From the NCBI GenBank assembly GCA_003599505.1, contig QZKO01000058.1, forward strand, positions 1-41,281: DNA of 41,281 nt. Direction: 5' to 3'. A model generated the notes under the pieces. It was given only the letters and a program-made list of their open reading frames with translations. It had not been told where the DNA came from and ran no database searches. Each line of letters starts with the position of its first letter. The stretch's first letter is position 1. Position numbers and translations under genes: made by a program. This DNA comes from Nitrospiraceae bacterium. GTDB taxonomy: Bacteria > Nitrospirota > Thermodesulfovibrionia > UBA6902. Below are positions 6,807 through 33,352 of this stretch, in pieces.

Positions 6807-6810
6807 TCGA

Positions 6811-12222: not shown

Positions 12223-12238
12223 TGGTATGTGTATTGCT
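12223..12238 (+). promoter_or_regulatory. Sigma-54 (-24/-12) promoter of the NHL gene
   Basis: TGGTATGTGTATTGCT has GG and GC 10 bases apart and a perfect TTGCT box. The start would be near 12249, leaving a leader of about 10 bases that includes the GAGG ribosome binding site at 12250-12253. Confidence 0.5.
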
Positions 12239-14885: not shown

Positions 14886-14918
14886 GCGTGTAGAGCAAAT
14901 CTCACATCACTTGCTTGA

Positions 14919-14948: not shown

Positions 14949-14954
14949 AATTTA

Positions 14955-14988
14955 CCCCTGTTAGAAGGACGAAGGGCTTCTAATGGGG
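14955..14988 (+). other. Second hairpin ahead of cytochrome copy B
   Basis: CCCC.G.TTAGAAG (14955-14967) pairs with CTTCTAA.GGGG (14977-14988), with a nine-base loop and one mismatch. It lies 20 bases before the ATG of copy B. There is no T-run. It may shape the 5' leader of copy B; it does not resemble a known riboswitch. Confidence 0.4.
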
Positions 14989-15007
14989 TTTACAGAAAAG
15001 GACACTG

Positions 15008-16330: not shown

Positions 16331-16355
16331 TAAAAATTTCATACGCATGTATTTC

Positions 16356-16387
16356 AGAGGGACGGGCAACCGTCCCTCTTTTTTATT
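16356..16387 (+). terminator. Rho-independent terminator after cytochrome copy B
   Basis: A perfect 10-base stem AGAGGGACGG (16356-16365) with CCGTCCCTCT (16370-16379), a GCAA loop and a following T-run. It separates copies A and B from copy C, which needs its own promoter. Confidence 0.9.
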
Positions 16388-18072: not shown

Positions 18073-18089
18073 TTGGAACAGATATTGCT
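18073..18089 (+). promoter_or_regulatory. Sigma-54 (-24/-12) promoter of the conduit operon
   Basis: TTGGAACAGATATTGCT: GG at 18075-18076 and GC at 18087-18088 are exactly 10 bases apart, and both boxes match the consensus well. Transcription would start near 18100, leaving 38 bases of leader with GGAGA at 18128-18132. About 98 bases upstream of that start, TGCTA-N8-TAGCA (17993-18010) is a possible activator site. Confidence 0.75.
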
Positions 18090-18138
18090 ATTTTCACGTC
18101 ATTCTTTAATAGTTTCCGCAGGTCAATGGAGAACGATA

Positions 18139-20352
18139 ATGAAAAGATTACCAGGATCGCTATTTACTATTATACTGCTTTGTCTGTTTGCGTGTGTGCC
18201 TGAACAGGCAATCAGGCATGAAGCGCAGGAATTTCCATCCCTCCCTCAGGTTACGGTCCGCCCTGACTTATCCGGAGAACCTAATGGTGGTTTCAACCCT
18301 TCATTTTCACCAGACGGCAGCATGATTGCCTTTCTCTCATCAACATTGCATACGCCCCATGATCTCTGGATCATGAAGACAGATGGAACAGGCGCAAAAA
18401 GGCTTACCACTAAAGGGGTCAAAGACTTCAGATGGTCTCCCGACGGCAAATCCATAATGATTACAGTCAATCGTAAGGGATTTGAAGAGACCTTAGTTAT
18501 AGGAATTGAGGCTGAATCGGCTGAGAAGCGCATTACCGGACTGGTTCCAGGGGCAAGTATTCCTGCTTATTCTCCTGATGGAGAACTTTTTGCGTTCACG
18601 GCGCCTAATGAAAAAAAAGTCAGAGACCTCTGGATAGGCACTGCCGACGGTGAGAGGATAGAGGCGGTTACAGAAAAAATCAGCGTCAGGAACGTCTTCT
18701 GGAGTCCCGACAGCCGCAAAATATATTATGAGGTCGGTAAAGACTATGGAGTCGGTATCTGGGAAATGGACCTGGCTACCATGGAGAGCAAGTCGATTCT
18801 CAGCAAATATATTGGTACGCCCGGCTATTCAGAGAAGGCAAACCTGATCGCATTTGCCTACCCCACCAACCCCGGGGAATTTGAGATACGGACCATGAAG
18901 CTTGACGGCTCCGACATAAAAAACTATGTGTCTCCACGGCTTCCCGGCAGGTGGATTTCATGGGATACAGATGGAAAGGGCGTTTATTATCTGGGTCAGG
19001 ACATTGAGGAAATCCATGCAACGGAAGCAAGCGATGAATCAGCAAAAGGACCGCCTGAGAAAACAGCAGCCGACGGGCTTGAAAAGCCCCCTATGCACCC
19101 TACAAGCAAGAAGCCGGATTTCAAACGCGCAGGCGTCACCTCTCTATGGCATCTTGATTTCGAGACCGGCGCTGAGAGGCGCCTTTCTCCTGAGAATCTT
19201 CATCTGACCGGCTTTTCTCTCTACTCTGACGGCACAAAGATGGTCCTGGTCGGAGTTACTGAAAAGAGTTATGCCGCTGAAATGTTCAGCTTTGATATGG
19301 CGTCTGAAGAGGTTGTTCAATTAACTGAAAGCAGGGTCTCATCATGGATGGCAGTGCCGTCAAGAGACTCTTCCAAAATAGCATATTTCACAAACGAAGG
19401 CTTTATCGATACGCTCAAAGTGGTCGGTTTTGAAGGTGAAGAGCTGGCTTCCTACCCCGGAATATTACAGGAAGGAGATATGAAGGTCTCATGGCTTCCT
19501 GACAGTGAGGGGATGATGATTTTCTCAGGCAGAGGTTTGTTCGCTTTTACGGAAAAAGGACCTATCGAATTCCCGAACAGGGTCGACCACAGGGTTTTTT
19601 TCTATGCCGATGTCTCGTTGCAGGGGGACAAAGTCCTTCTTAATTCTATCCCGCGCTTTGGCGAAACCCCGGGGCTTTATACGCTTGAGATAAAGGAAGG
19701 CAAGTTTCTGCAGACAGATCTGCGATATCCACAAAACCCGGAGGATGTACCTGAACTTTATTTCCAGCCCCGATGGTCTTTTGACGGGAGGAAGATTGCT
19801 TTCACCGACAGGGTCGATATCTGGACTATGAAGGCTGAGGGCACAGGCCGGACGCGGATTACAACCTTCGCTGAAAACAACCTGAACGAAACCGGGAAGC
19901 CCTCTCTGGCATCTTATCCCGTCTGGTCGGTGAACGGGGAGATGATATGTTATACCCTGACTGTATACGATGAGAAGGAAGTCATCCGCCAGATATGGGT
20001 CATGAACGCCGACGGCTCTGAGGGCAGGATGCTTTTTTCTGAAGAGCTGGACAGCCAGTTTCAGGCATATCAGGCTGAATATACAAATCAGCCCTTTTTC
20101 GACGCAACAGACGAAAGGGTCATTTATACTGCCGTTACTAACGGCATACCGGATATTTTTTCAGTCGGTATCAGGGACGGAAAAGTTCAGAGGCTGACGG
20201 AACACGGCGCTATCTATCCTTCCTTATTCCCTGAAGAAGGAGTCGTGATTTACACATCATTGGAAGGCAATAATGAGACCCTTTGGATAATGAACAGCGA
20301 CGGGACGGACAAGCGTCGATTTATAATTACGGGAGCGGAAGAAAATAAATGA
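18139..20352 (+). CDS. TolB-like (PD40/WD40-like) beta-propeller lipoprotein
   Basis: A 737-residue protein. I start at ATG 18139, with GGAGA six bases upstream. The N-terminus is then a lipoprotein signal (IILLCLFAC, acylated Cys near residue 19). A TTG at 18073 would overlap the promoter. The body carries many TolB-type blade motifs: FSPDGSMIAFLSS, LWIMKTDGTGAKRLT, WSPDGKSIMI, AYSPDGELFAF, WSPDSRKIYYE, RWSFDGRKIAFTD, IWVMNADGSEGRML and LWIMNSDGTDKRR. This suggests two propellers in tandem. A low-complexity linker lies near residue 320 (EKTAADGLEKPPMHPTSKK). It is first in the operon and probably outer-membrane attached. TolB-like propellers bind other envelope proteins; the partner is unknown. 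Confidence 0.88.
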   Translation: MKRLPGSLFTIILLCLFACVPEQAIRHEAQEFPSLPQVTVRPDLSGEPNGGFNPSFSPDGSMIAFLSSTLHTPHDLWIMKTDGTGAKRLTTKGVKDFRWSPDGKSIMITVNRKGFEETLVIGIEAESAEKRITGLVPGASIPAYSPDGELFAFTAPNEKKVRDLWIGTADGERIEAVTEKISVRNVFWSPDSRKIYYEVGKDYGVGIWEMDLATMESKSILSKYIGTPGYSEKANLIAFAYPTNPGEFEIRTMKLDGSDIKNYVSPRLPGRWISWDTDGKGVYYLGQDIEEIHATEASDESAKGPPEKTAADGLEKPPMHPTSKKPDFKRAGVTSLWHLDFETGAERRLSPENLHLTGFSLYSDGTKMVLVGVTEKSYAAEMFSFDMASEEVVQLTESRVSSWMAVPSRDSSKIAYFTNEGFIDTLKVVGFEGEELASYPGILQEGDMKVSWLPDSEGMMIFSGRGLFAFTEKGPIEFPNRVDHRVFFYADVSLQGDKVLLNSIPRFGETPGLYTLEIKEGKFLQTDLRYPQNPEDVPELYFQPRWSFDGRKIAFTDRVDIWTMKAEGTGRTRITTFAENNLNETGKPSLASYPVWSVNGEMICYTLTVYDEKEVIRQIWVMNADGSEGRMLFSEELDSQFQAYQAEYTNQPFFDATDERVIYTAVTNGIPDIFSVGIRDGKVQRLTEHGAIYPSLFPEEGVVIYTSLEGNNETLWIMNSDGTDKRRFIITGAEENK

Positions 20353-21263
20353 AGATAAGAACTAATAGGTTTAATTCCCCTCTTTGGCAATCAGCAGTTG
20401 TAGTTTCTTTGCTGCTGGCAGTGGCAATGCCTGCCTTCCCTCTCGGGCTTGAAAAGGTGGATGTAATAACTCCCTCAGGAACGGACTCAGGGCTGTTAAG
20501 CCCGGAGGCGCTTTTCTACGATGGGTTAAGAAACCTCCTGATCGTTGCCAATACCGGGGCGCATCAGGTCGTTATTATGGACCGCCGGGGCATCGCGACG
20601 AAAGTTTCAGGAAAGGGAGGAGAGCTCCGGTTTCCAACCGCGGTTGCAGTAACAAATAAAGGGACCCTCTTTATAGCCGAAAGGGGGAAAGAAAGCCTCA
20701 GGGTCCTTCCGCAGTATGAATCCGGGGCGCTGGAAGAATACCATATGATTGAGCTGTCTTCATACAGACTCGCCGCCGCTGTTCAGCCTTCGGGGCTTTT
20801 TGTGACAAAGGAAGGCAACCTTTACATTGCCGACAGAGGGAACCGGCAGGTCCTTGTTTTCGGGAGCGACGAAAAATTCAAATTTAAAATTACCGGCGTA
20901 GGAGAGCCGGCCGACATCTGGGTAGGTCCCGGTAAAATCTTTGTTTCAGACCCGGGGTTTGGAGGGATTCGTGTTTACAACGAAGAAGGCAAGGCAATGT
21001 CCACCTTGGGCACATCACCTGCCAAATTCAGGGCGCCTCTCCGGATACGCACACTCGCAGTGGACCGCAGGGGACGCGTATGGGCGGTAGAGGAAGGGAA
21101 TGGGATAAGAGTTATTGATCCCTCCGACAACCCTCTCCTGTCAATCAGCCGTGAGATAACAGGACTTTTTTCCTCTATTGATATGACTATTGATGATAAC
21201 AACAACCTCTATATCCTTGAACAGGGGGGAAACAGGATATCGGTTTTCCGTATCACCGAATAG
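20349..21263 (+). CDS. Secreted NHL-repeat beta-propeller protein
   Basis: A 304-residue exported protein. Its ATG overlaps the previous stop codon (ATGA), a clear sign of translational coupling. The signal peptide includes VVVSLLLAVAMPAFP. NHL-type blades follow: LLSPEALFYDGLRNLLIVAN, LRFPTAVAVTNKGTLFIAE, QPSGLFVTKEGNLYIADRG, RTLAVDRRGRVWAVEEG and MTIDDNNNLYILEQGGNRIS. At least five blades are visible. It resembles the propellers at 12259 and 21280 in layout but not closely in sequence. No enzyme motif is seen. Its place between the TolB-like lipoprotein and the cytochromes suggests a scaffold or docking role in the same envelope assembly (inference). Confidence 0.85.
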   Translation: MKIRTNRFNSPLWQSAVVVSLLLAVAMPAFPLGLEKVDVITPSGTDSGLLSPEALFYDGLRNLLIVANTGAHQVVIMDRRGIATKVSGKGGELRFPTAVAVTNKGTLFIAERGKESLRVLPQYESGALEEYHMIELSSYRLAAAVQPSGLFVTKEGNLYIADRGNRQVLVFGSDEKFKFKITGVGEPADIWVGPGKIFVSDPGFGGIRVYNEEGKAMSTLGTSPAKFRAPLRIRTLAVDRRGRVWAVEEGNGIRVIDPSDNPLLSISREITGLFSSIDMTIDDNNNLYILEQGGNRISVFRITE

Positions 21264-21279
21264 TCCTTTTGCAAACAAA

Positions 21280-22215
21280 ATGGAAAGAACTTTTACCGCA
21301 CAATTTGCCCTTGCTCTCTCTGGTTTAATAGTGGGAATGACCCTCTTTTCTGTGGAGAAGGCAATTTCAGACGAAACTAAGGCGCCTGAAATAAAGAAGA
21401 TCGCCGTCTTTCAGGACCAGGGGGGCGAGAGACTTTTAAGGAGCCCGTTATCCATCGCTATCGATAAGAACAACGGGGACCTGATTGTCACAAGTTTTGA
21501 GGCCGCTGAAATCGTCATCCTTGACAAGAGCGGGGCCCTGATCCGGAGACTCGGCAAAGAGTCGGGACTTATATCACCGTATGGAGCTGCAATCAATGAG
21601 AAAGGTCAAATATATGTCAGCGAAGCTCATACAGGCTTTTTGAAGGTGTTCAGTCCCGGGGGTATACTCGTTGATAAGATCGACCTTTCCATGATGACCG
21701 GAAAGACTGTCTCGCCCGGGCGGGTTACTATCAGTAAAGAAGGTCTTGTTTATATTTCCAACCTTAACGATAACGATATCCTTGTCTTAAATGACAAAGG
21801 GGACCTTGTGAAATCGGTCGGGCAATTCGAATACCTCCAGAAAGCGGGGGATGCCGGAGGAAAGATATTAGGCCTCAGCGCTATGGGAAGCGCCGTAAAG
21901 ATATTTGATGACCAGGGGAATTTACTCCGGACCTTCGGAGAGCATGGAGACGAATCCCATAAAAACTTTTCATTCCCTACAGGCTTTGCGGTGGACTCAA
22001 AAAACAGGTTATGGATCGCGGACGCCTTTCAGCACCGGTTGAAGGTCTTCTCGCTTGAAGGGAAACCGCTGTTTAATTTCGGCTACATGAAAGAAAAGCA
22101 GTGGACGTTTTTCTTTCCCGTGGATTTGTGTTTCGGGGAAAAAGGGGAGCTTTTTGTTGTTGAAAAGGGAGCAAACAGGATCCAGGTCTTTCAGGTGAGT
22201 GATCTGAGGGAGTAA
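21280..22215 (+). CDS. Secreted NHL-repeat beta-propeller protein
   Basis: A 311-residue exported protein. I choose ATG 21280, 16 bases after the previous stop, because the N-terminus then reads as a signal peptide (FALALSGLIVGMTLFSVEKA). A longer frame would begin inside the upstream gene. No clear ribosome binding site is seen. NHL-type blades: LRSPLSIAIDKNNGDLIVTS, ISPYGAAINEKGQIYVSE, VSPGRVTISKEGLVYISN, SFPTGFAVDSKNRLWIAD and FFPVDLCFGEKGELFVVE, the last ending in RIQVFQVSD. The C-terminal blade closely resembles that of the 12259 protein (RVQVFRIKF), so the two probably derive from one ancestor. Third propeller gene in a row. Confidence 0.82.
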   Translation: MERTFTAQFALALSGLIVGMTLFSVEKAISDETKAPEIKKIAVFQDQGGERLLRSPLSIAIDKNNGDLIVTSFEAAEIVILDKSGALIRRLGKESGLISPYGAAINEKGQIYVSEAHTGFLKVFSPGGILVDKIDLSMMTGKTVSPGRVTISKEGLVYISNLNDNDILVLNDKGDLVKSVGQFEYLQKAGDAGGKILGLSAMGSAVKIFDDQGNLLRTFGEHGDESHKNFSFPTGFAVDSKNRLWIADAFQHRLKVFSLEGKPLFNFGYMKEKQWTFFFPVDLCFGEKGELFVVEKGANRIQVFQVSDLRE

Positions 22216-22217
22216 GA

Positions 22218-23282
22218 TTGAAAATAAGTAAAACCACAGAGCACACTGAGTGCACAGAGAACACTTCTGAAAAAATTATTAACTATAAAATTTCTCTGTG
22301 TTCTCTGTGGTTAATTGTTTTTTTTGGGTTAATACTTTCGTCGGCCATAACCGCAAACGCGACTCCTTATCACGACCTTGAAAAAAACAGGCAGCCCTGC
22401 AGTGACTGCCATACCCAGCATTACAGTGAAGGGGGGGGGACGCCACCCGGGGTGGAGGCAGGCGGTCCTTTTGCGGAGCTGCTTATCCGCGCCACTACAA
22501 ACAAGCTTTGTCTTTTCTGTCATGACGGCAGCGATCCGAAGGCGCCGGATGTTCTCGGCCCGGTCACAATGTATGACGGCAGCGGCGACGAGCACTCAGG
22601 CGCGGGCTTTTTCAGCAACAGCGGCGGCGTCAGCGCTGAACAGGGGCACGACCTCGGGGTAACGTCGGTTTCAGTCCCCTTCAGCTCCATGACGAACATG
22701 ACCCTGACCTGCGCGTCATGCCATGACCCCCATGGGACGATTAACTACAGGAATGTGCTCAGCAGCCCTGCCGGTGGAGCAGGTTTGACTGTTGAGATGG
22801 CAAAGGATGTATTCCGTGACGCGCCGCCCGGGGACCCTCCCTCGGCAACGGCCTCTGTTTCAGCGTATAAGGAGTCGAATGAAGGCTATAAGGCCAATAC
22901 TTCCCTGTGGTGCACTGAATGTCATGATGGTCTCAAGCCGTCTGTCAACAACCCGGTAAACAGGGTGCATCATTTAATCGATGTACCTGTTAACGGGGGC
23001 GGATATCCGACAGACCCGGCCCACTGGGCCGCGGGGACAGGACCGGGGTTCGGGGCCGCGACAGGCGACTTGACGGAAGGCGTGCCCAGGCTCCGTTTTC
23101 AGGCTTCAACCGCGACGGATTATATATCTTCAAAAGTGGTCGCTTCCGGTAATGAGGTAATATGCACAAGCTGTCATCTGGCGCACGGCGGGAGATATAA
23201 AAAAGGGCTTGTCTGGCCGTACCTGGAGCCGGACAGTCCTATTGACGCAAATTCAGGATGCAATCAATGCCATAACTTTTAA
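22218..23282 (+). CDS. Secreted hexahaem cytochrome c with repeat-derived signal N-region
   Basis: A 354-residue protein starting with TTG at 22218, two bases after the previous stop, with GAGGGAG upstream. Six haem motifs: CSDCH, CLFCH, CASCH, CTECH, CTSCH and CNQCH, the last three residues from the end. The layout (first motif CSDCHTQHYS, then CASCHDPHG, then CTSCHLAHGG) recalls the OmcS-like copies, though identity is low; it may be a distant member. The signal sequence is odd: about 28 polar residues precede the hydrophobic core (SLWLIVFFGLILSSA). This stretch is encoded by an inverted CACAGAG repeat (22232-22312), whose right arm also encodes part of the core. It belongs to the 18139-31470 gene run. 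Confidence 0.82.
   Translation: MKISKTTEHTECTENTSEKIINYKISLCSLWLIVFFGLILSSAITANATPYHDLEKNRQPCSDCHTQHYSEGGGTPPGVEAGGPFAELLIRATTNKLCLFCHDGSDPKAPDVLGPVTMYDGSGDEHSGAGFFSNSGGVSAEQGHDLGVTSVSVPFSSMTNMTLTCASCHDPHGTINYRNVLSSPAGGAGLTVEMAKDVFRDAPPGDPPSATASVSAYKESNEGYKANTSLWCTECHDGLKPSVNNPVNRVHHLIDVPVNGGGYPTDPAHWAAGTGPGFGAATGDLTEGVPRLRFQASTATDYISSKVVASGNEVICTSCHLAHGGRYKKGLVWPYLEPDSPIDANSGCNQCHNF
22232..22312. repeat. Inverted CACAGAG repeat inside the start of a cytochrome gene
   Basis: The left arm has nine-base units around CACAGAG (CACAGAGCA, CACTGAGTG, CACAGAGAA). The right arm is its inverse (TTCTCTGTG, TTCTCTGTGG). The outermost ten bases AACCACAGAG (22232-22241) and CTCTGTGGTT (22303-22312) pair perfectly. 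It lies inside the reading frame from 22218. Confidence 0.85.
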
Positions 23283-23291
23283 CGTTCCGCA

Positions 23292-24761
23292 ATGAAAATG
23301 ATGATTAACCACAGAGACACGGAGAAATTAAAATTGAAGATTGGAAATTTAAAATTTGAAATTTACAACTTCCAATTTCAAATATCTTTTTCTGTTTTGT
23401 TTGTGCTGCTTTTCACGTTGATAACTAATGCAGGGGCGGCCGGTGTCTACAACAGCACCAGACACGGCAGTCCGCAAACCGGGGTTATGCGCGACCCTGC
23501 GGCGCCGAGGGGCTCATGCAGGCAATGCCATTCCGAAAGCGGAACAGCCATAAAATACCCGAAGTCCCTGTGGAGAGAAAATGATAACGAGCTGTGTTAT
23601 GCCTGCCACCGGGACGAGACCCTTTCCGGCGTCTATCCGGGGCAGAGGGTTTACGATACGGCCACGCACAGGATAGACCCGCGCGCTGCATGGCCGGGAC
23701 CTTCTCCTTCCCCGCGTAAGGATATGGACGCAGCCGGGAAATGTCTTAATTGTCATGATCCGCATGGAAGGCAGGACAGGTCCGGCGTCATCCCGAATCT
23801 CCTGATTGCCCGCGAGGAGACGCTCTGCCTGAGCTGCCATGATGGAGACCCTGCAGGCGATATTTTGCGGGACCTCAGGAAACCATACAGCCATCTGATA
23901 CGCCAGGGCACAGGCAAACACGGCAGCGATGAGGGTGGAGACCCGTCCCGTTATTCGTATACCGCAGGTAACCGTCACGCGGAATGCAGCGACTGTCATA
24001 ACGCCCACGCAGTCAGGCATAATACCGCCCTTCAAACAGCTCCCGCGGCTTCAGAGAGCGTTCTAAGGGTAAGCAGGGTACGGGTATTCAACGGCAGCCC
24101 TGAAACCATACCCGGATACCAGTATATTCCCGCAGGCGACACAGGCTCTCCGCTGCTTGAATATGAGATATGTTACAAATGCCATTCCTCATGGACCCGG
24201 CAGCCGGCGGGGCAGCCGGACCTGGCCCGGCTTTTTAACACTAATAACGCCTCATTTCACCCGGTTGAAGGGCCGGGGAAAAACACCGGGATTGCCCCGG
24301 GGTCCTTTGTTGGAGGTATTAACGCGTTCAGCGTTATCTATTGCAGTGACTGTCACGGCTCTAACGACTCAAACCTCAGGGGTCCGCATGGCTCGCAGTT
24401 CCCGGATATCCTGCGGCGCCCCTATGTAACGCAAGACAGCGGGAGGTCCCCTGAAAGGGACGAGCTTTGTTTTATGTGCCACAACTATGACACGTATGTA
24501 AGCGCGGCTTCCCCCGCGGTATTTCAGCAGGCCAGCCGCTTTAATCCGCCTGCTTCATCCAGCGGGCATGTATTTCACGCGGGGCAGAGAAATGTGCCCT
24601 GTTACACCTGTCATGACTCTCATGGCTCGGCCCAGTTCGGGGCCCTGATTGTAACCAGAAGAAACCCCGGCCTCCTGAGTTTCAGCATGAACTCTAACGG
24701 AGGCTCCTGTCTGCCGACATGTCATGAGCAGAGATCTTATACAGTTAATTATCCGAGGTAG
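23292..24761 (+). CDS. Secreted decahaem-type cytochrome c with a CX3CH site
   Basis: A 489-residue protein with nine CxxCH motifs: CRQCH, CYACH, CLNCH, CLSCH, CSDCH, CYKCH, CSDCH, CFMCH and CYTCH. A tenth site near the C-terminus reads CLPTCH, with three residues between the cysteines. Paired-CXXCH patterns (CLNCHDPHG, CYTCHDSHG) are frequent. The signal peptide has about 30 polar residues before its core (SFSVLFVLLFTLITNAGA), encoded by two repeat sequences (23304-23387). Nearby ATG codons at 23298 and 23301 are equally possible starts; no ribosome binding site is clear. The stop lies one base before the GTG of the outer-membrane barrel gene, so the two products are probably made together, as in porin-cytochrome conduits. 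Confidence 0.83.
   Translation: MKMMINHRDTEKLKLKIGNLKFEIYNFQFQISFSVLFVLLFTLITNAGAAGVYNSTRHGSPQTGVMRDPAAPRGSCRQCHSESGTAIKYPKSLWRENDNELCYACHRDETLSGVYPGQRVYDTATHRIDPRAAWPGPSPSPRKDMDAAGKCLNCHDPHGRQDRSGVIPNLLIAREETLCLSCHDGDPAGDILRDLRKPYSHLIRQGTGKHGSDEGGDPSRYSYTAGNRHAECSDCHNAHAVRHNTALQTAPAASESVLRVSRVRVFNGSPETIPGYQYIPAGDTGSPLLEYEICYKCHSSWTRQPAGQPDLARLFNTNNASFHPVEGPGKNTGIAPGSFVGGINAFSVIYCSDCHGSNDSNLRGPHGSQFPDILRRPYVTQDSGRSPERDELCFMCHNYDTYVSAASPAVFQQASRFNPPASSSGHVFHAGQRNVPCYTCHDSHGSAQFGALIVTRRNPGLLSFSMNSNGGSCLPTCHEQRSYTVNYPR
23304..23387. repeat. CACAGAG and AATTTGAA repeats inside the start of a cytochrome gene
   Basis: AACCACAGAGACACGGAG (from 23306) is a CACAGAG-type element. It is followed by an AT-rich array of near-heptamer units (AAATTGAAGATTGGAAATTT and onward) whose left part GATTGGAA is inverted at TTCCAATTT near 23370. 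Both elements are translated as the N-terminal region of the cytochrome. Confidence 0.7.
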
Positions 24762-24762
24762 A

Positions 24763-26517
24763 GTGAAGACGATGACGTATTACGATTTTCTATTAGTAGC
24801 ATTAATTTTTTGTGTCATGATTGCCGCTGTCCCGAGACAGGGGCTGGCGATCACGAGGTGGAACGGCGTTTTTACACTTGAAGACACATACGCGGAGGGA
24901 CCGGATGGAAGCAACAACCTCTTTCAGGGGGGGCTCAGCCTTGATATCAGGCCCCCCATAAAAAAACAGCTTAATGCCGTATTCAATCTCAGGCTTAACT
25001 ACACGGCCGCGGATGGAAAGGCCCTGTGGAATATTTCACCCATCGGCAATTTATCGGTTGATCTTGCAGGGGAAAGTTACAGCATGAACCTCCAGCACAG
25101 CCGCCTGGCAACGGTAACGACCTCTGCGGAGCTGGTTGAAACCACTACTTCAAGGGCCGGATTTGCCCTTTTCCGGAGAGACTTGCCGGGTCTTGTCACC
25201 AGTTATTCTACAACAGAGACTACCTTCGGAGATACTGAAACACGGACTAATTCCTTTTCTCTTTTCAGCGACTACAAATACAAATGGATGAATTTCAGGG
25301 GCGGCTATTCAAGACAGGAGCGGGAATCAGGGGACCAGCCGTCTCTTAGCTCGGATTCGACGTCTTTCGGACTCGGGGGGAACTACGAAATCCTGCCCAA
25401 AACTTCTCTGACCGGTGATTTTGATATTAATCGCTTCACGTCCGGGAGCGCAGGCGGCGCGGAAACCGTAACCGTAGGCAAGGTGTTCCGTCTTGGCGCG
25501 CTAACAAGACCTGCATGGTGGTTTGATTTAGGGGGCAATTATACCAAAGAAATTACCGAGGTTGAGTCGGAGAGGGCCACGAGCACGTCCAGCCGGTATA
25601 CTGACCTGACCGCAGGCCTGTATCCAATACCCGAATTACGCCTTTTCGCTACAGTGGGAAACAGGGAATTTGACGATATAGACAGAAAACGCAGCGTTGA
25701 TTTCAATACCATCGGCGCGTCATTTTTACATAGATTAATGGAGAAGATTCAACTCGGTTTAAACGCGTCACGGACCCGCGAAACAGACCTTGATCAGGGA
25801 AAAAATATCAGAGACAATTTCGGATTGAATTCAGTAATGGACCTGACCCCGAGGGCTTCGTTAAGGGTCAACCTGAATATAAACAGGAACGAATCCCCGG
25901 CTTTTGTGAGCTCAAGAGACTTCGATGCTTCCGGAATACTATCGGACCGGGCGCTTTTTGACGACAGACCGGCCGGATTTACCTTCTTTGATACGGTCAA
26001 TAATGACCTTTATACCAAGCTCTCATCGTTGCTTGGCGACTGGTCCCCTCCGCAGCATATAGAACCGGTAACCGAGACCTTTTCCATAAATGAATCGGTG
26101 CAACTGAACATGATACCTACAGACAAGACAATCCTTGCCCTCTTTTATTCGGCAAATTCTTCATCCGAAGAACTTGATTTCACAAGCATAGACAGCCAGA
26201 ACCTGAGCAGTTCATTAACTTATCAGCCTAACCGGCGCACCGGCTACAGCCTTACAGGAACTGTTTTATTGCCGAAGACAGGAGACGAGTCATATTCAGG
26301 AACAGCTTCTATGGCATACCGGTTTTATCGGGGACATCAGGCCGGTCTGAGCTACGGCAGAAGTGTATCGGCAGGAAGGACCACCGATAACACTTCAGGC
26401 AACCTCAGACTCGCGTTAAGGAAGCGTTCAACGCTGGACTTAACATATTCAATATCACAATTATTCAAGGACGATCAGAGCAATTTTATAAGGGTCCGGT
26501 ACAGTAAATCTTTTTAA
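24763..26517 (+). CDS. Outer-membrane beta-barrel protein, probable conduit porin
   Basis: About 584 residues. I choose GTG 24763 because GAGGT (24754-24758) is well placed; ATG 24772 is the alternative. A signal peptide (FLLVALIFCVMIAAVPRQGLA) is followed by a long chain of amphipathic strands with alternating hydrophobic residues and Tyr/Phe/Trp girdles, such as FNLRLNYTAADGK, WWFDLGGNYTKE, LRLFATVGNREF, ASLRVNLNINRNE and HQAGLSYGRSVSA. It ends in RVRYSKSF, with the terminal Phe typical of BAM-inserted barrels. Length would suit 20 or more strands, similar to MtrB- or OmbB-type barrels that hold cytochromes. It sits between a decahaem cytochrome and two lipoproteins. The barrel is fairly sure; the conduit role is inference. 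Confidence 0.8.
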   Translation: MKTMTYYDFLLVALIFCVMIAAVPRQGLAITRWNGVFTLEDTYAEGPDGSNNLFQGGLSLDIRPPIKKQLNAVFNLRLNYTAADGKALWNISPIGNLSVDLAGESYSMNLQHSRLATVTTSAELVETTTSRAGFALFRRDLPGLVTSYSTTETTFGDTETRTNSFSLFSDYKYKWMNFRGGYSRQERESGDQPSLSSDSTSFGLGGNYEILPKTSLTGDFDINRFTSGSAGGAETVTVGKVFRLGALTRPAWWFDLGGNYTKEITEVESERATSTSSRYTDLTAGLYPIPELRLFATVGNREFDDIDRKRSVDFNTIGASFLHRLMEKIQLGLNASRTRETDLDQGKNIRDNFGLNSVMDLTPRASLRVNLNINRNESPAFVSSRDFDASGILSDRALFDDRPAGFTFFDTVNNDLYTKLSSLLGDWSPPQHIEPVTETFSINESVQLNMIPTDKTILALFYSANSSSEELDFTSIDSQNLSSSLTYQPNRRTGYSLTGTVLLPKTGDESYSGTASMAYRFYRGHQAGLSYGRSVSAGRTTDNTSGNLRLALRKRSTLDLTYSISQLFKDDQSNFIRVRYSKSF

Positions 26518-26528
26518 TGGAGGACAAT

Positions 26529-27125
26529 ATGAAGGGGTTTAAGATATTAATACTTTTACTGATGACAACTTCAATAAGCTGCGGTTCTCTGACGGACAGC
26601 CGGAGCTTTATACATCCCGACGCGGATTTCAGCTTTTACCAGAAAGTAGGTCTGCTTCCTTTTAAAACCCAGGCTGACGACAGACTTGCGGGGGAGAAGG
26701 TGACCGAACATTTTTTGACCGAACTACTCATCAGGGGTGAGCTGGAGGTGATGGACCCCGGACAGTTTAACGCCGTGGCGGCACAGGTCGCAGGGGTAAA
26801 CGTTCCTGCCTCAATGCTGGAGCTGACCCCGGAACAGATAGGCAAGATAGCCGATGTAGCTGATATACAGGGCATTTTCTCGGGGACGATCCATGACTAC
26901 AAGATGGTCCAGCTTGGCGGCGAGCAATATCCGATGATTTCAATGACAGTGAAGTTTATAGACGCGCTGACAGGGAAGGTTGTCTGGCAGAACAGCGTTA
27001 CCGCGACAGGGGGCCCCAACCTGCCGATTGTCAGCATCGGAGAAGAATTTACCCTGGGACAATTGTCACAGAAGATATCTCAGGGCGTGGTGAAAGATTT
27101 TTATAAGAAGGCATATCCAAAATAG
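26529..27125 (+). CDS. CsgG/LpoB-like lipoprotein 1
   Basis: A 198-residue lipoprotein. ATG 26529 is chosen because GGAGGA (26519-26524) lies five bases upstream and the lipobox then sits correctly (LILLLMTTSISC). An ATG at 26517 overlapping the previous stop would bury it. The mature part has the CsgG/GNA1162/LpoB-like alpha/beta pattern: VGLLPFKTQADD, FLTELLIRGELEVMDPGQF, IADVADIQGIFSGTIHDYKM, MISMTVKFIDALTGKVVWQ. CsgG relatives form outer-membrane export channels or periplasmic helper proteins; this one lacks an obvious barrel-forming hairpin. It is paired with a paralogue 15 bases downstream. Exact function is unknown. Confidence 0.75.
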   Translation: MKGFKILILLLMTTSISCGSLTDSRSFIHPDADFSFYQKVGLLPFKTQADDRLAGEKVTEHFLTELLIRGELEVMDPGQFNAVAAQVAGVNVPASMLELTPEQIGKIADVADIQGIFSGTIHDYKMVQLGGEQYPMISMTVKFIDALTGKVVWQNSVTATGGPNLPIVSIGEEFTLGQLSQKISQGVVKDFYKKAYPK

Positions 27126-27140
27126 AAAGGACGGTTTATT

Positions 27141-27743
27141 ATGAGAATAAAAAAATTCTTTTATACCGGCGTGATACTGGTCCTGCTTTCAGCGCTGCTT
27201 TCAGGCTGCGGGTCCTCAGTGGCCCCGTTCAGGAGCAAAGAGCTGAAAAAGGAAGACGGCATCAATATGGCTGTCCTGCCTTTCGACAACCTGAGCAAGA
27301 CGCAGGGAGCGGGGAAAATAATGGAGAACTATATACTGGTGGAATTTCTGAAGCGCTCGCCTCTCGATATCATTGAACCCGGAGAGGTGCTCTCGGTCCT
27401 GTCACAGGAAAGGATAAGGCTTGCAACCAGCGTGCCCAGAGAGACCATCAACAAGATAGGGAAGCGCCTTGACGCCAGGCTTCTCATGATCGGAATTGTG
27501 CACGAATACGAGATGCAGCTTGCCTCAGGACCGGGAGGCTCAGGCCAGGTCCCCGTAATCGCGGTCTCTCTGAGGATCGTAGACGCCGATACCGGGAATA
27601 TTGTCTGGGCCGTCAGCGCCCCCCGCCGGGGGACCGATAACGAGACCGTATTCGGCATCGGGCGAATCCAGTCCATGGACCGGCTGGCGCAGAAGACCGC
27701 GGAAGAGATTGCGCAGGCGTTTACGGATTCCATGAAGAAATAG
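27141..27743 (+). CDS. CsgG/LpoB-like lipoprotein 2
   Basis: A 200-residue lipoprotein with lipobox ALLSGC at the end of its signal peptide and GAAAGGA upstream of the ATG. It is a paralogue of the preceding gene: compare NMAVLPFDNLSK with VGLLPFKTQADD, LDIIEPGEVLSVL with LEVMDPGQFNAVA, LLMIGIVHEYEMQ with GIFSGTIHDYKMV and VSLRIVDADTGNIVWA with MTVKFIDALTGKVVWQ. The pair may form a hetero-oligomer at the outer membrane. The next gene, the 42-haem cytochrome, starts 14 bases later, so stoichiometric production with it is likely. The fold family is inferred from these blocks. Confidence 0.77.
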   Translation: MRIKKFFYTGVILVLLSALLSGCGSSVAPFRSKELKKEDGINMAVLPFDNLSKTQGAGKIMENYILVEFLKRSPLDIIEPGEVLSVLSQERIRLATSVPRETINKIGKRLDARLLMIGIVHEYEMQLASGPGGSGQVPVIAVSLRIVDADTGNIVWAVSAPRRGTDNETVFGIGRIQSMDRLAQKTAEEIAQAFTDSMKK

Positions 27744-27757
27744 AAAGGAGTTTCAGG

Positions 27758-30700
27758 ATGAGTATTACATCAGGGAAGAAGCTGGTTATCGGGATTTTCC
27801 CGGCGATTGTCTTTTTTACAATAATTATATTCGGCGGCAGGGAAGGACTGACCGCCAAAAAGACCTGCTATGACTGTCATAAAGAGACGAAGATAAAGCA
27901 CGCAAAGACCTTTGTTCATGCCCCTGTGGCAAAGGAAGACTGCGAGGCGTGTCACAAAAGACACGGCTTTTCCAACAAACTGATTTTAAAGGCTGAAGGC
28001 GCGGAGCTCTGCTATTCATGCCATCAGGATGTAAAGGAAAAGTTTGGGAAGAAGACAATGCATCCTCCGGTCAGCGAGGGTAAGTGTACAGCGTGCCATA
28101 ATCCACATGCGTCAAACAATAAAGGATTGATAAAGGAGACAAGCGACGGTTCATCCGTATGCTTTGAATGTCATAAAGGCCTTAAGGACATAAGGTCCGC
28201 TGCAGGCGCTCATCAACCCTTCAGTAAGGGGGAATGCATCCTGTGTCATCCCGCGCACTCATCCGAGCTGGACCGCCTCCTTGTCGGGACGGGAAATGAG
28301 CTTTGCTTTTCCTGTCATCAAAGGGACAATGTGGTTTCAAAACGGCCCCATGACCTTCCCTCAACGCAGGCCCAGGACTGCACCGCCTGTCACAGCCCTC
28401 ACGGCACGGAGAAAAAGGGTTCGGTCCTTCCGGGCATACACGAGCCTTACGTCCAGGGCGACTGCACGGTTTGCCACGCGGAGCCGCAAGGCGGCAAACT
28501 GAACCAGCCCGTTAAAGAGCTTTGTGTGATGTGTCATCCGGACGTGTCGGAAAAAACCGGCAAGCAGGTCGCGCACTTTCCAGCGAAAGAAGGAGATTGC
28601 CTTACCTGCCATACTCCGCATAAAAGCGGGTCGCGTCCCCTGCTCAAGTCCGGTCAGAAGGAGGTGTGTCTTGAGTGCCACATGCTGCTTGAAGATGAAT
28701 TCAAAAAACCTCAGGTCCATAATCCATTCAATCAGGGCAGATGCGCGGCGTGCCATGAACCTCACGGCTCGGTAAACAGTAAACTTGTAAAAGATACGGG
28801 AGCTGAGCTTTGCCTTGGATGTCATGACAAAATAAAGCAGGAGCTTGACCGTCCCGGAACACGTCATATGGCGCTGGATATGGGGGGATGCCTGACCTGT
28901 CATGAACCGCACGGCGCCCTGAATCAGAAATTACTCAAAAAAGTTGAGCGGAACCTCTGCATCGAGTGCCACTCAAACCTTAAAGAAAGTACGGGTTACA
29001 GATATAAACACAAGCCCCTTGTGGAACAGGGCTGTTCGGCGTGTCATACCCCGCACCGTTCTGAAGGCAAGGCGCTGACAAAGCTCCAGGGAAAAGAGCT
29101 TTGCCTCAGTTGTCACGCGGTCATGAAGGAAGCCTTGACAAAAAAACATCCGCATCCTCCGGCCATGGGAGAATGCGTTGATTGTCACAGTCCTCATGGA
29201 AGCAACAACATATCGATCCTCGGCAAGGAACAGAAAACTCTATGCCTTACCTGCCATGGGGACCTTGAGCCGGTTTTCAAAGGTAAAGCGGTCCATACGC
29301 CCGCAAAGCGGGGAGAATGCTCGGGCTGCCACAACCCGCATGGTTCAGACCTTGAAAAAGGCCTGAGCGCCGAAGGGCCGGACCTCTGCTATTCCTGCCA
29401 TACAGAAGAAAAGAAGCGCTTCAGCGAAGGCAAGGTCCATGTTCCGGTTGAAAAGGGCAAATGCACTACGTGTCACGCCCCCCATGGCTCGGACAATCCC
29501 GGCAACCTGCTCAAACCGGTCGGCGACCTCTGCGCGAGCTGTCATAATCTGTCAAAGCCGGAATTCAAAACAGCCCACGGGAACATGGCCGGCATAAAAT
29601 CCGACTGCGCTTCCTGTCATGACCCTCACTCCTCTGAAAGCGGCAAGCTCCTGAGGGGTAAGGCCCACAGTCCTTTTAAAGACAGGGCCTGCGACCTGTG
29701 TCACACCGAAAGTAAAACCGCGGGTGAAGCGGCGCTGCTGACGCCGAAGGAGCAGCTCTGCTTTATCTGTCATTCGGATATGGAAAAATTCCTGAAGGAC
29801 CCTGTCGCGCACAATCCGGTGAAGAAGGGGGAATGCGTCGGTTGTCATAACCCCCACGCGTCATCTTCTGATAAACTCCTTGCGGCCACGGGGGCAAAGT
29901 TATGCTACATTTGCCACACGGACAAGTCGGATATTGCCGGTAGAAAGTTCCAGCATAAGCCGCTTGCCGATGGCGATTGCTCCATATGTCATAGCCCTCA
30001 CTCTTCCGGCAATAAAGGGCTTCTCGTGATGACCGGCAAGGACCTTTGTCTCGGCTGCCATACGGAATTGGGAGAAAGCCTGTCAGGGAAGTCCCTGCAT
30101 AAGCCGGTTGCGGACGGTGACTGCGGCGTGTGCCATGACCCGCACGGGACAGACAACCGTAAATTAATCGCGGAAAGCGTCCCCGGTCTTTGCTGGCGGT
30201 GTCATGACGCCCCCGGCCTTAAGACAAAGCACAGGGGCATAGATATATCAGACGCGAACTGCCTTAGCTGTCACAACCCTCATGGAGGTGAAAAGGGGAC
30301 AAAGGCGCTTCTTGAACCGGTCACTCACGCCCCATATGCGGCAGAGGCCTGTACTTCATGCCACGTCGCAGAAGGAAGCAGGGAGCTTTCAAAACCCGTG
30401 CCCGGGCTTTGCTGGGAATGCCATGCCGACGCAAAAAAAGGTTTTGAGGGGAAGGCCGTCCATTCCCCGGTGGCTTCAGACAAGCTGTGCCTGAATTGTC
30501 ATTCTCCGCACGCCGCTTCATCAAAGAAGCTTTTGTTCAAGGGGTCTCCTGGACTTTGCTTTAACTGCCATGACAGGGGGATGACGGACAAGAAATTTAA
30601 GCACCCACCCGCTCAGGACTGTTCAAATTGCCATGTCCCTCATACAGGGGAACAGTCAAAGCTTCTCCTGACGAATCTGGAGCAGCTCTGCCTGCAATGC

Positions 30701-30892
30701 CATGAGACTGTGAAAAAGACCCATTTGCACGGGATGGGAAAGAGCCCTTATGTGGATGCCGTGACAGGGCAATATGTAAACTGCGTCAGTTGTCATAACC
30801 CGCATTCATCGGACCATGACAAGCTCACAAACGGCGACAGGCGAAGGGACCTCTGCAGGCGGTGTCATAAAAAGGGGCAGCATGAGCTTTAG
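27758..30892 (+). CDS. 42-haem cytochrome c of paired-CXXCH type
   Basis: A 1044-residue protein with AAAGGAG ahead of its ATG and an N-terminal hydrophobic segment (IGIFPAIVFFTIIIFGG) acting as signal or anchor. I count 42 CxxCH motifs, from CYDCH at about residue 36 to CRRCH near the end, roughly one per 25 residues with hardly any other sequence. The repeating module, about 49 residues long, is LCxxCH, a spacer with one or more lone His (VHxPxxxGxC), then CxxCHxPHGSxxxxLL: the doubled-CXXCH family. Around 20 modules are present. Such a rod could span the periplasm or outer membrane as an electron wire. It is the largest gene here, placed among lipoproteins and a barrel. The haem number is counted; the wire role is inference. 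Confidence 0.93.
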   Translation: MSITSGKKLVIGIFPAIVFFTIIIFGGREGLTAKKTCYDCHKETKIKHAKTFVHAPVAKEDCEACHKRHGFSNKLILKAEGAELCYSCHQDVKEKFGKKTMHPPVSEGKCTACHNPHASNNKGLIKETSDGSSVCFECHKGLKDIRSAAGAHQPFSKGECILCHPAHSSELDRLLVGTGNELCFSCHQRDNVVSKRPHDLPSTQAQDCTACHSPHGTEKKGSVLPGIHEPYVQGDCTVCHAEPQGGKLNQPVKELCVMCHPDVSEKTGKQVAHFPAKEGDCLTCHTPHKSGSRPLLKSGQKEVCLECHMLLEDEFKKPQVHNPFNQGRCAACHEPHGSVNSKLVKDTGAELCLGCHDKIKQELDRPGTRHMALDMGGCLTCHEPHGALNQKLLKKVERNLCIECHSNLKESTGYRYKHKPLVEQGCSACHTPHRSEGKALTKLQGKELCLSCHAVMKEALTKKHPHPPAMGECVDCHSPHGSNNISILGKEQKTLCLTCHGDLEPVFKGKAVHTPAKRGECSGCHNPHGSDLEKGLSAEGPDLCYSCHTEEKKRFSEGKVHVPVEKGKCTTCHAPHGSDNPGNLLKPVGDLCASCHNLSKPEFKTAHGNMAGIKSDCASCHDPHSSESGKLLRGKAHSPFKDRACDLCHTESKTAGEAALLTPKEQLCFICHSDMEKFLKDPVAHNPVKKGECVGCHNPHASSSDKLLAATGAKLCYICHTDKSDIAGRKFQHKPLADGDCSICHSPHSSGNKGLLVMTGKDLCLGCHTELGESLSGKSLHKPVADGDCGVCHDPHGTDNRKLIAESVPGLCWRCHDAPGLKTKHRGIDISDANCLSCHNPHGGEKGTKALLEPVTHAPYAAEACTSCHVAEGSRELSKPVPGLCWECHADAKKGFEGKAVHSPVASDKLCLNCHSPHAASSKKLLFKGSPGLCFNCHDRGMTDKKFKHPPAQDCSNCHVPHTGEQSKLLLTNLEQLCLQCHETVKKTHLHGMGKSPYVDAVTGQYVNCVSCHNPHSSDHDKLTNGDRRRDLCRRCHKKGQHEL

Positions 30893-30897
30893 GTCTG

Positions 30898-30916
30898 CCA
30901 CAGAGGTCACAGAGAA
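30898..30916. repeat. Short CACAGAG repeat
   Basis: Two nine-base units, CCACAGAGG and TCACAGAGA, directly after the stop of the 42-haem gene. Same family as the elements at 22232, 23306 and 37260. Confidence 0.6.
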
Positions 30917-30933
30917 AGAATGAAGGGGGAGAT

Positions 30934-31470
30934 ATGAGTTTAATGCCGGGAAAATTTAATCAGATGATAAGGATTGCAGGTGTTTTCCTTATACTGCTGT
31001 CATTTGCAGGCTGCAAGGAAAAGGTTGACAAACCTGCGCCTCCTGAAAAACCTTTGATGCAGACAGAATTGCCGGAGCCAAAGGAGCCGTTAAAACAGGA
31101 ATCGCCGCAACCTGAGACCATGCCGGCTGTAACACTTACAGCGCTGAAAATAAATGAAGACTACACAAACAATCTTACATGGCTTGATATCAGCGCGTCA
31201 GGGACTTTCCTTCACAATATTGTGCTGAAGGAACATCCTGAACGTATTATCATTGTCCTTCACAACACAAAAAAGGGAAAGGCCCCATCAAAGCTTACCG
31301 TAAATAACGGCACCATAACTGAGATCGGAATTGACGAGCTTGCTACAGGGAAAGGCGCCGCAGTAAGGATCACTGTCGGGCTTTCCCGTAAAACCGATTA
31401 CAAGGTGCATGCCTCAGGCGAAGGACTGATAATGAATATCCGGAGGCACGAAGTTTCAATTAATAATTAA
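30934..31470 (+). CDS. AMIN-domain lipoprotein
   Basis: A 178-residue lipoprotein: signal FLILLSFAGC with the acylated Cys near residue 27. A proline- and glutamate-rich linker (EKPLMQTELPEPKEP and on) follows to about residue 65, then a domain of about 110 residues with the AMIN pattern (LTWLDISASGTFLHNIV, ERIIIVLHNTKKG, VRITVGLSRKTDYKVHA, LIMNIRR). AMIN domains occur in PilQ and in cell-wall amidases, where they bind peptidoglycan or guide proteins to the envelope. Here it would tether part of the conduit to the cell wall or help assemble it. GGGGGAG precedes the ATG. It is the last gene of the close-packed run, 41 bases after the 42-haem gene. Confidence 0.72.
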   Translation: MSLMPGKFNQMIRIAGVFLILLSFAGCKEKVDKPAPPEKPLMQTELPEPKEPLKQESPQPETMPAVTLTALKINEDYTNNLTWLDISASGTFLHNIVLKEHPERIIIVLHNTKKGKAPSKLTVNNGTITEIGIDELATGKGAAVRITVGLSRKTDYKVHASGEGLIMNIRRHEVSINN

Positions 31471-31547: not shown

Positions 31548-31556
31548 GCTTTGTTT

Positions 31557-33050
31557 ATGAATATAACCAAACATAATATCTTCTACAGGCTGAATACAAA
31601 GATTACTGTGGCCATTGTCATATCACTGCTGGTTGTGCTCGGCATCTCCACATATGTCATGGAAGACGTTCAGAGAAAAGATACCCTCAGGAAAGCTGAG
31701 GAATCGGGGTTTTTCATATCTTCAACCCTGTTAAGCAACCTTGAGTACCACATGATAAAAAACGACAGGGGCGAGATAGAACAATTTATGGAGGATATGA
31801 ATAAATCCAGGGAGATAGAAACCGCCTCCATAATAAAAGAAGACGGCCGGATAGTGTACTCTACAAATCCGAATTCCATCGGGATGAAGATAAGCGCTTC
31901 GTATATATCAAATTTTCTTGAAAAGGACCAGGAGCAGGTTGTGAATACGGGTTTTAAATCAGGCAGGAGGGTCCTCAGCGTGGTTACAAAGCTGGTCAAC
32001 AGAAAAGAGTGCTTCAGTTGTCATGACCATAACAGAGAATATTTAGGGATCATGCTTGTCGACATCTCAATGGCGCCGACCGAGAAACTGATTGTCGATA
32101 ACAGGAACAGACTTATCTTCTCTTCCGCTATCGCGATACTCTCGGTTTCAGTCATCCTGTTTATTCTGAACAACAGGTTCATATACCGGCCTGTAAAAAA
32201 ACTGAAAATGGTGATCGACGGCGTTAAACAGGGCGACCTTACGGTAAAAGGGGATTACCCGATAAAAGATGAAATAGGCCATCTCGGCGACAGCCTGAAC
32301 TCAATGGTCGAATCACTGAATAACGCGAACAGGGAATTGCGGGAGAGCTATCTGAAGCATATTTACCAGACGGAAAAACTTGTGGCCATCGGACAGCTTA
32401 CTTCCGGGATCATACATGAGATACAAAGCCCGCTCACGGGCATATATTTTTCTTTAAAGGCCCTGCGGGATGAAGAGAAAGACGGAAGCGAGACGGGGCG
32501 CCTGCTGGACCGTGTGCTTTTACATCTGGATAAGGTCATGAATATGGCCAAAAAACAATTAGGCTTTATTAAACCCTCCCGCTCCAGGCCGGAATCCGTC
32601 AACCTGAACGACCTTGTGGAAGGGACCCTGTTTCTGGTTGTAAAACAGGCTGAAAAACAAAAGATTAATATCCTGAAAAAGTTCATGGAAGATCTTCCGG
32701 CGGTCACTGCGGAGCCCGATAACCTCAGACTTGTTTTTCTCAACCTGTTGTTAAACGCCATCCAGGCCATGCCGTCAGGAGGCAGCCTCAGGATAATTTC
32801 GGGGGTTTCTTCCGGCGGCGAAAACTGTTATGTTTCAATTTCAGACAGCGGCCCCGGGATCCCGGGGCATGAAATGAACAGAATATTTGATCCTTTTTTT
32901 ACTACAAAAGAAAGCGGGACCGGACTGGGCCTGTTCATATCAAAGGGCATTATCGACGCCCAGGGCGGTAAGATTGATATTGAAAGCAGAGCTGGAGAGG
33001 GGACTACTTTTACAGTGAAACTGCCGGCTGGCGCAAGAGTCGCGCTCTGA
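31557..33050 (+). CDS. Sensor histidine kinase with a periplasmic haem-c motif (A)
   Basis: A 497-residue kinase. ATG 31557 is preferred to TTG 31551, though neither has a clear ribosome binding site. First membrane helix about 16-36 (ITVAIVISLLVVLGI), a periplasmic domain to about 180, second helix about 185-205 (LIFSSAIAILSVSVILFIL), HAMP linker, then the kinase core: H-box IIHEIQSPL with phospho-acceptor His287, N-box LLLNAIQAM, G1 DSGPGIPG, G2 GTGLGL. Within the periplasmic domain, CFSCH (residues 152-156) is a canonical haem-c attachment site, placed just before the second helix. Such kinases could sense redox state or a gas ligand. The sigma-54 activator at 33353 is the likely partner. 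Confidence 0.93.
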   Translation: MNITKHNIFYRLNTKITVAIVISLLVVLGISTYVMEDVQRKDTLRKAEESGFFISSTLLSNLEYHMIKNDRGEIEQFMEDMNKSREIETASIIKEDGRIVYSTNPNSIGMKISASYISNFLEKDQEQVVNTGFKSGRRVLSVVTKLVNRKECFSCHDHNREYLGIMLVDISMAPTEKLIVDNRNRLIFSSAIAILSVSVILFILNNRFIYRPVKKLKMVIDGVKQGDLTVKGDYPIKDEIGHLGDSLNSMVESLNNANRELRESYLKHIYQTEKLVAIGQLTSGIIHEIQSPLTGIYFSLKALRDEEKDGSETGRLLDRVLLHLDKVMNMAKKQLGFIKPSRSRPESVNLNDLVEGTLFLVVKQAEKQKINILKKFMEDLPAVTAEPDNLRLVFLNLLLNAIQAMPSGGSLRIISGVSSGGENCYVSISDSGPGIPGHEMNRIFDPFFTTKESGTGLGLFISKGIIDAQGGKIDIESRAGEGTTFTVKLPAGARVAL

Positions 33051-33331: not shown

Positions 33332-33352
33332 AATACTTTGCGAGGGTTATCC

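Follow-up and report, generated by a model that had tools for sequence, protein, structure and literature searches.

The window analyzed here is a 41,281-nucleotide stretch of DNA, contig 19 (QZKO01000058.1) of the 2.64-Mb, 95% complete draft genome of a Nitrospiraceae bacterium (Nitrospirota, probably Thermodesulfovibrionia). It carries a run of ten genes, numbered 1 to 10, encoding a PD40 propeller lipoprotein, two NHL propellers, a hexaheme and a decaheme cytochrome, a large outer-membrane barrel, two small lipoproteins, a 42-heme cytochrome, and an AMIN-like lipoprotein (Table 1). Gene content and homology suggest that this run is probably the core of a second type of omcS-companion (osc) machine, one that would export OmcS-like filaments and feed them electrically.

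It is an open question by which means cells fold, export, and anchor cytochrome nanowires and supply them with electrons (PMC12307469). In Geobacter sulfurreducens, the eight genes GSU2500 to GSU2493 are linked to OmcS nanowire maturation and secretion in one report (PMC12977616), and another assigns OscD to morphology, OscE to OscG to secretion, and OscH to folding, with oscI being GSU2495 and oscJ being GSU2494 (PMC13194489). The product of GSU2495 carries 26 hemes. Around OmcS homologues that are more remote and come from the phylum of the window, another recurring cluster was found. It consists of genes for an NHL protein, OmcS-like cytochromes, a YVTN propeller lipoprotein, a barrel of ~740 amino acids (aa), small and tandem CsgG-type lipoproteins, a prolyl isomerase, 26-heme and 16-heme cytochromes, and an NHL protein, and at least two of its markers were present in 36 of 67 further loci. 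This recurring cluster matches the osc operon of Geobacter; the osc letters used below are presumptive assignments to gene families based on gene order.

Conservation of the gene cluster

Genes 1 to 9 recur in the same order and on the same strand, with identities of 30 to 83%, in seven other genomes, as revealed by gene neighborhoods and a table of tblastn matches. These genomes are Nitrospiraceae SURF_45, Thermodesulfovibrionia DeMMO2_3 (on two contigs), DeMMO2_13, Krumholzibacteriota Dive96_bin3.147, Geobacteraceae R2F, Deltaproteobacteria RIFOXYD12, and OFTM73, and OmcS-family genes are adjacent every time. The sequence of an eighth locus, groundwater_1915, stops in gene 1. Gene 10 was found in three of the relatives. 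The unit is thus patchy in its distribution but stable in its order. An earlier note on this DNA, made from the sequence alone, had treated the genes as one unit and proposed a synteny search as a check; the co-occurrence of genes 1 to 9 in order, far above chance, indicates that they are a unit in the evolutionary sense. The unit also extends upstream of the run, where it includes an NHL protein and three OmcS-like genes and begins at 12223. That the genes are chance neighbors, or independent transcripts with unrelated roles, is hardly credible: the additional sigma-54 site at 18074 and the hairpin at 16356 to 16379 (see below) suggest that at least two transcripts arise here, but an order and strand shared across several phyla at such identities largely refute the idea.

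An OmcS-like profile run against 84,980 species genomes yielded eleven loci with proteins 55 to 79% identical to that of the window, after which identity fell to ~30%. The closest relatives (77 to 79%) are those of SURF_45 and DeMMO2_3. In a tree of 96 hexaheme proteins, those that are OmcS-like and come from these loci group as a single clade (Shimodaira-Hasegawa-like approximate likelihood ratio test value of 100, 16 rows), which covers several phyla and thus points to horizontal transfer, with the caution that these genomes are metagenome bins. A plasmid search gave no match.

Among 396 Nitrospirota genomes, the second-type barrel was strongly matched in 2 and the osc barrel in 47, with no overlap. 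The osc barrel was lacking in 8 of the 10 genomes searched, including that of the window, as would be expected if the second-type cluster can stand alone, and both cluster types are held by RIFOXYD12 and OFTM73. A single-sequence search with the gene 6 barrel found no match in 245 other Nitrospirota genomes; the description of this barrel as an orphan was withdrawn once the cross-phylum scan had found relatives.

OmcS-like cytochromes

The link of the unit to OmcS-family cytochromes, which the earlier note had drawn from the genes just upstream, is supported by the tree and by profile matches to the solved OmcS structure. A profile built from the second-type OmcS-like proteins alone had OmcS (6EF8) as its sole match in the PDB (E = 1.5e-18), and the profile similarity of the window's OmcS-like proteins to OmcS is nearly full length. 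Besides the CXXCH motifs, five additional histidines are invariant among 15 OmcS-like sequences. The family profile of gene 4, which lies inside the run, likewise matched only OmcS 6EF8 in the PDB (E = 9e-11). At locus L055:11341-14605, a single open frame of 1,088 aa combines an OmcS-like cytochrome with a PD40 protein, a possible fusion of subunit and propeller.

The 42-heme cytochrome

Judged by its alignments, gene 9 combines in a single chain the two osc cytochromes of 26 and 16 hemes. Residues 33 to 652 align with the osc 26-heme protein (E = 2e-116) and residues 665 to 1038 with the neighboring osc 16-heme protein (E = 1e-77), and gene 9 also aligns with the profiles of both families. 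For the 26-heme part, the spacing of the hemes agrees, with offset 0 being clearly the best placement (deviation of 15 versus 32 for the next). Heme spacing does not discriminate the placement of the 16-heme part, so this half rests on sequence alignment. Long gene 9 matches were obtained in 7 of the 9 genomes searched, one copy having an in-frame stop, and heme spacing is nearly unchanged among six uninterrupted 42-heme homologues. The interrupted copy, in the Krumholzibacteriota bin (L146:9867-13727), carries its in-frame TAA around heme 25/26, not far from where the two parts join.

The history of gene 9 may have been either a fusion to the 42-heme chain or a fission into the 26- and 16-heme pair. 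In OFTM73, the canonical osc cluster (L148:9241-12426) likewise encodes a 42-heme chain, and its spacing is canonical, which suggests that joining or splitting occurred more than once. In a Gemmatimonadales bin (L116:5109-8342), a canonical osc cluster has its 26- and 16-heme proteins joined as a 42-heme chain. Another Nitrospirota genome encodes a 35-heme cytochrome (L049:16160-18727) close to an osc-type cluster. A text search of the literature found no paper on a 42-heme cytochrome.

Among PDB sequences, gene 9 is matched best by MtrA, which is chain A of the Mtr complex structure 6r2q (E = 8e-18). This chain is named "Cystathionine beta-synthase" in the sequence table, a misnaming that could mislead annotation. 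MtrA arranges ten hemes over about 8 nm. At that spacing, 42 hemes would, at a guess, reach ~30 nm, enough to cross the periplasm.

Outer-membrane barrel and PelC-like lipoproteins

Gene 6 has no Pfam match, and an outer-membrane barrel, as proposed earlier, is supported by its AlphaFold2 model, which has ~23 confident strands (predicted local distance difference test [pLDDT] score of 70) and a poorly modeled region at residues 55 to 157. In a profile-profile comparison with hhalign, gene 6 matched the osc barrels over 558 columns (probability of 97.2%, E = 3e-11), and it is probably their counterpart. An alignment with MtrB (6r2q_B) extends over the whole span of the model (Z of 17.2, 389 residues). 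TonB-dependent barrels score as high as MtrB, and the structure therefore cannot separate these two barrel kinds. MtrB was retrieved with VIA-align and was absent from the best 50 Foldseek matches listed for gene 6. In sequence searches of the PDB, neither gene 5 nor gene 6 had a match.

The structural likeness to MtrB bears on the main alternative reading, in which the run forms a porin-cytochrome conduit: an MtrB-like gene 6 barrel would permanently sheathe the gene 5 cytochrome or the MtrA-like stretch of gene 9, the filament would dock outside, and the lipoproteins would only stabilize the assembly. The decaheme gene immediately before the barrel gene, a strand count compatible with about 26, and the Mtr complex chain as the best PDB match of gene 9 agree with such a conduit, as does the whole-span alignment with MtrB. 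However, TonB-dependent barrels tie with MtrB, gene 6 lacks a barrel-family Pfam match, and genes 5 and 6 lack PDB sequence matches. Moreover, osc clusters keep the barrel and lipoproteins though no decaheme gene lies directly ahead of their barrel, and PelC rings are known from export and not from Mtr complexes. We regard the conduit as rather unlikely. The earlier note had described the run as a complete trans-envelope electron conduit, which goes too far, the barrel being at least as likely to serve in export as to house a cytochrome; the part of that note which fits best is the export or anchoring of filaments.

Genes 7 and 8 belong, by profile score, to the osc small-lipoprotein family, whose profile was built from 24 osc-cluster members. 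The model of gene 8 (pLDDT of 88), which has a hairpin at residues 114 to 148, matched PelC best (Z of 16.3, root mean square deviation of 2.6 over 146 residues), followed by CsgG (Z of 11.6) and LpoB (Z of 10.8). The family profile matched the PelC sequence with an E value of 3.9e-12 and LpoB marginally, and it had no CsgG sequence match at E<=1. The superfamily fold implied by the former description of these proteins as CsgG/LpoB-like therefore stands, and the nearest relation does not, PelC being closer by both structure and profile. Twelve copies of the lipoprotein PelC sit as a ring on the barrel PelB (PMC12141448). The Pfam CsgG match of gene 8 (E = 5e-7) and its structural match to CsgG would suit a curli-like secretion, with genes 7 and 8 themselves forming CsgG-type pores for filament subunits and the barrel doing something else. 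Such pores are quite improbable, given the far better agreement with PelC in structure and profile, the length of only 200 aa, and the separate large barrel that the osc relatives of these proteins usually accompany.

One Poribacteria bin encodes a fusion of an NHL propeller with an osc-type barrel (L092:13019-15502). The cluster at this locus is intermediate between the two types, with 6-heme and 9-heme cytochromes, two lipoproteins, and a 19-heme cytochrome extending up to the contig end.

Organization and regulation of the region

The ten open reading frames are collinear on the + strand at 18139 to 31470, separated by gaps of -4, 16, 2, 9, 10, -1, 15, 14, and 41 bases. The close spacing and overlaps reported before were confirmed, as were the run itself and the heme motif counts of genes 4, 5, and 9 (6, 10, and 42). 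The run had been placed at 18073 to 31470, of which the start needs correction, since 18073 lies at the promoter and the ATG of gene 1 lies at 18139. A Pfam scan of the run confirmed PD40, NHL, and multiheme domains, in agreement with the TolB-like lipoprotein and two NHL propellers recognized earlier; it gave no match for genes 6 and 7, and CsgG was found in gene 8 only. Gene 10 had been called an AMIN lipoprotein, for which the Pfam AMIN match is below threshold. Homologues of gene 1 with 43 to 66% identity occupy the same position in 8 genomes. Gene 1 comes after the OmcS-like genes, which is the position of the YVTN propeller OscD in osc clusters. The C-x3-CH motif of gene 5 is present in 7 of 7 homologues, indicating ten hemes rather than nine.

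Across the window, 12 sigma-54 matches with at most 2 mismatches were found versus 20 expected by chance. The site ahead of gene 1 is nevertheless more than chance, because TTGGAACAGATtTTGC is the best-conserved block in the aligned upstream DNA of two relatives, with all but one base retained at the same place; the -24/-12 promoter proposed earlier for the run is thereby strengthened. Internal sites of this kind ahead of gene 1 were found only in the Nitrospirota loci. A high-scoring sigma-54 site precedes the first gene (NHL or OmcS) in 7 of the 8 loci examined, against a chance expectation of 0.017 per 350-bp region, and the GG of the -24 element and the TGC of the -12 element are invariant in the alignment of these seven head sites. 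The hairpin after the second OmcS-like gene suggests that OmcSa and OmcSb end as a separate transcript.

Two sensor kinases, an NtrC-type activator, and a PhnD-type lipoprotein are encoded downstream of the run, and PhnD, kinase, and NtrC homologues adjoin the clusters in L061, L141, L142, and L059 too. Farther downstream, a sigma-54-like site, TGGCATGAAAATAGCT, lies upstream of an octaheme cytochrome gene (37450 to 38628), a homologue of which is also found downstream of the cluster in SURF_45 (L142).

Table 1. Features of the omcS-companion region of the window
Feature	Position	Strand	Evidence or remark
-24/-12 (sigma-54) site ahead of first gene (NHL propeller)	12223..12238	+	TGGTATGTGTATTGCT
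NHL propeller, secreted; counterpart of NHL protein ahead of omcS-type genes	12259..13293	+	osc-cluster NHL profile, E = 1e-50
OmcS-like hexaheme cytochrome a	13470..14885	+	six CXXCH; second-type-only profile
OmcS-like hexaheme cytochrome b	15008..16330	+	six CXXCH; second-type-only profile
Strong intrinsic-terminator-like hairpin after OmcSb	16356..16379	+	10-bp stem, 7 GC, T run
OmcS-like hexaheme cytochrome c	16665..17954	+	six CXXCH; second-type-only profile
-24/-12 (sigma-54) promoter-like site of ten-gene run	18074..18089	+	TGGAACAGATATTGCT; one mismatch to common consensus
Gene 1, PD40 (TolB-type) propeller lipoprotein	18139..20352	+	PF07676, E = 4e-19
Gene 2, NHL propeller	20349..21263	+	Pfam, synteny table
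Gene 3, NHL propeller	21280..22215	+	Pfam, synteny table
Gene 4, hexaheme cytochrome, divergent OmcS-family member	22218..23282	+	6 CXXCH
Gene 5, decaheme cytochrome	23292..24761	+	9 CXXCH plus conserved CX3CH
Gene 6, large outer-membrane beta-barrel, about 23-26 strands	24772..26517	+	AlphaFold2, structure and profile matches
Gene 7, PelC/CsgG-superfamily lipoprotein a	26517..27125	+	osc small-lipoprotein profile, E = 1e-33
Gene 8, PelC/CsgG-superfamily lipoprotein b	27141..27743	+	osc small-lipoprotein profile, E = 8e-35
Gene 9, 42-heme cytochrome	27758..30892	+	42 CXXCH
Gene 10, AMIN-like lipoprotein (accessory)	30934..31470	+	directly after gene 9 in 3 relatives
Sensor kinase, one CXXCH in sensor part	31551..33050	+	homologue follows cluster in SURF_45
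Sigma-54 activator, NtrC type	33338..34708	+	PF00158, E = 1e-66
PhnD-type periplasmic binding lipoprotein	34767..35687	+	PF12974, E = 2e-61
Second sensor kinase, one CXXCH in sensor part	35684..37273	+	CXXCH count, domain search

Proposed mechanism

In the proposed machine, the OmcS-like subunits encoded at 13470 to 17954, and perhaps the gene 4 product too, would be exported over the outer membrane via the gene 6 barrel, with the PelC-like lipoproteins of genes 7 and 8 forming a ring on the periplasmic side of the barrel in the manner of PelC on PelB. The propellers of genes 1 to 3 may be anchoring or assembly factors at the membrane in place of OscD. The 42-heme protein would span the periplasm as a continuous heme wire, one chain doing the job of OscI and OscJ, and would link modules of the inner membrane to the filament base by electron transfer, perhaps via the decaheme cytochrome of gene 5. 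The unit would be turned on by the sensor kinases with heme motifs and the NtrC-type activators. Upstream of the nanowire genes, at 5564 to 9231, genes for a tetraheme cytochrome, an Fe-S protein (PF13247), an NrfD protein (PF03916), and an 11-heme cytochrome stand in a row; they look like an inner-membrane quinol module that might be able to feed the 42-heme wire.

Several observations weigh against an osc-like export machine. The OmcS-like proteins of the window share just 23 to 27% identity with canonical ones, and a single OmcS-like sequence of the window searched against the PDB gave no OmcS match, so that their assembly into filaments is putative. The match of gene 6 to the osc barrels is remote, and any large barrel could partly inflate such a score; searching at genome scale with the profile of the osc barrel did not recover gene 6, which is too divergent. 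A decaheme gene immediately before that of the barrel is also the arrangement expected of a porin-cytochrome conduit. A profile search found no counterpart of the OscH prolyl isomerase in the cluster, and the matches elsewhere in the genome are shorter and generic only (frames of 306 and 353 aa). The tandem lipoprotein of ~370 aa at the OscG position is absent, there being two single-domain proteins of 200 aa only. The YVTN propeller lipoprotein of the OscD position likewise had no convincing profile match in the cluster. Because these three usual parts were tested for and absent, the cluster was not classed as osc; in their stead, the run has the PD40 lipoprotein and two NHL propellers.

A broader proposal, put forward tentatively and less favored than the export and feeding role itself, is that the cluster could be a second, independently usable assembly system for OmcS-type nanowires. 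It would have a route of its own through a barrel and PelC-like rings, no dedicated prolyl isomerase, and a single 42-heme periplasmic wire to the filament base, and it would have spread between phyla and be able to coexist with canonical osc.

Comparison with known systems

The PelBC exopolysaccharide exporter (PMC12141448; PDB 9h80) resembles the run in that genes 7 and 8 have the fold closest to PelC and a barrel gene is present. It differs in that no solved structure matches the window's barrel in sequence, the lipoproteins are of two different kinds, and the cargo would be protein. With the curli exporter CsgG, the run shares the superfamily fold of genes 7 and 8, but these proteins are nearer to PelC and only 200 aa long.

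MtrCAB and porin-cytochrome (Pcc) systems also combine a barrel with an adjoining decaheme cytochrome; MtrB is a structural neighbor of gene 6 and MtrA a sequence neighbor of gene 9. In contrast to these systems, the window has a barrel without a barrel-family Pfam match, propellers, PelC-like lipoproteins, a 42-heme protein, and a tie to OmcS-type genes. The earlier statement that the genes are not a standard Mtr or Pcc set accordingly holds, but the lack of precedent that it implied does not, since several blocks parallel the osc cluster.

In both the osc cluster and the window, OmcS-family hexaheme genes lie directly upstream (omcS, omcT, and oscC in G. sulfurreducens; the three genes at 13470 to 17954 here). 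Both also have a propeller, a large barrel (that of the window being a probable counterpart), small CsgG/PelC-type lipoproteins, 26- and 16-heme cytochromes, and NHL propellers, and sigma-54 regulators are often close by. The window run differs in joining the 26-heme (OscI) and 16-heme (OscJ position) cytochromes in one chain, in its shorter and divergent barrel, in the additional OmcS-family hexaheme and decaheme genes inside it and the AMIN lipoprotein, and in having a PD40 lipoprotein where osc has the YVTN propeller OscD. The second-type cluster probably works like the osc cluster. Two machines for one filament family would then separate the parts that are kept, i.e., the OmcS-type subunit, the barrel, the PelC-like lipoproteins, the 26 plus 16 hemes, and the NHL propellers, from those that are swappable, i.e., OscD, OscH, and the tandem lipoprotein. 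This common core provides targets for study, namely the barrel with PelC-like rings, a candidate export channel, and the 42-heme chain, a candidate periplasmic wire.

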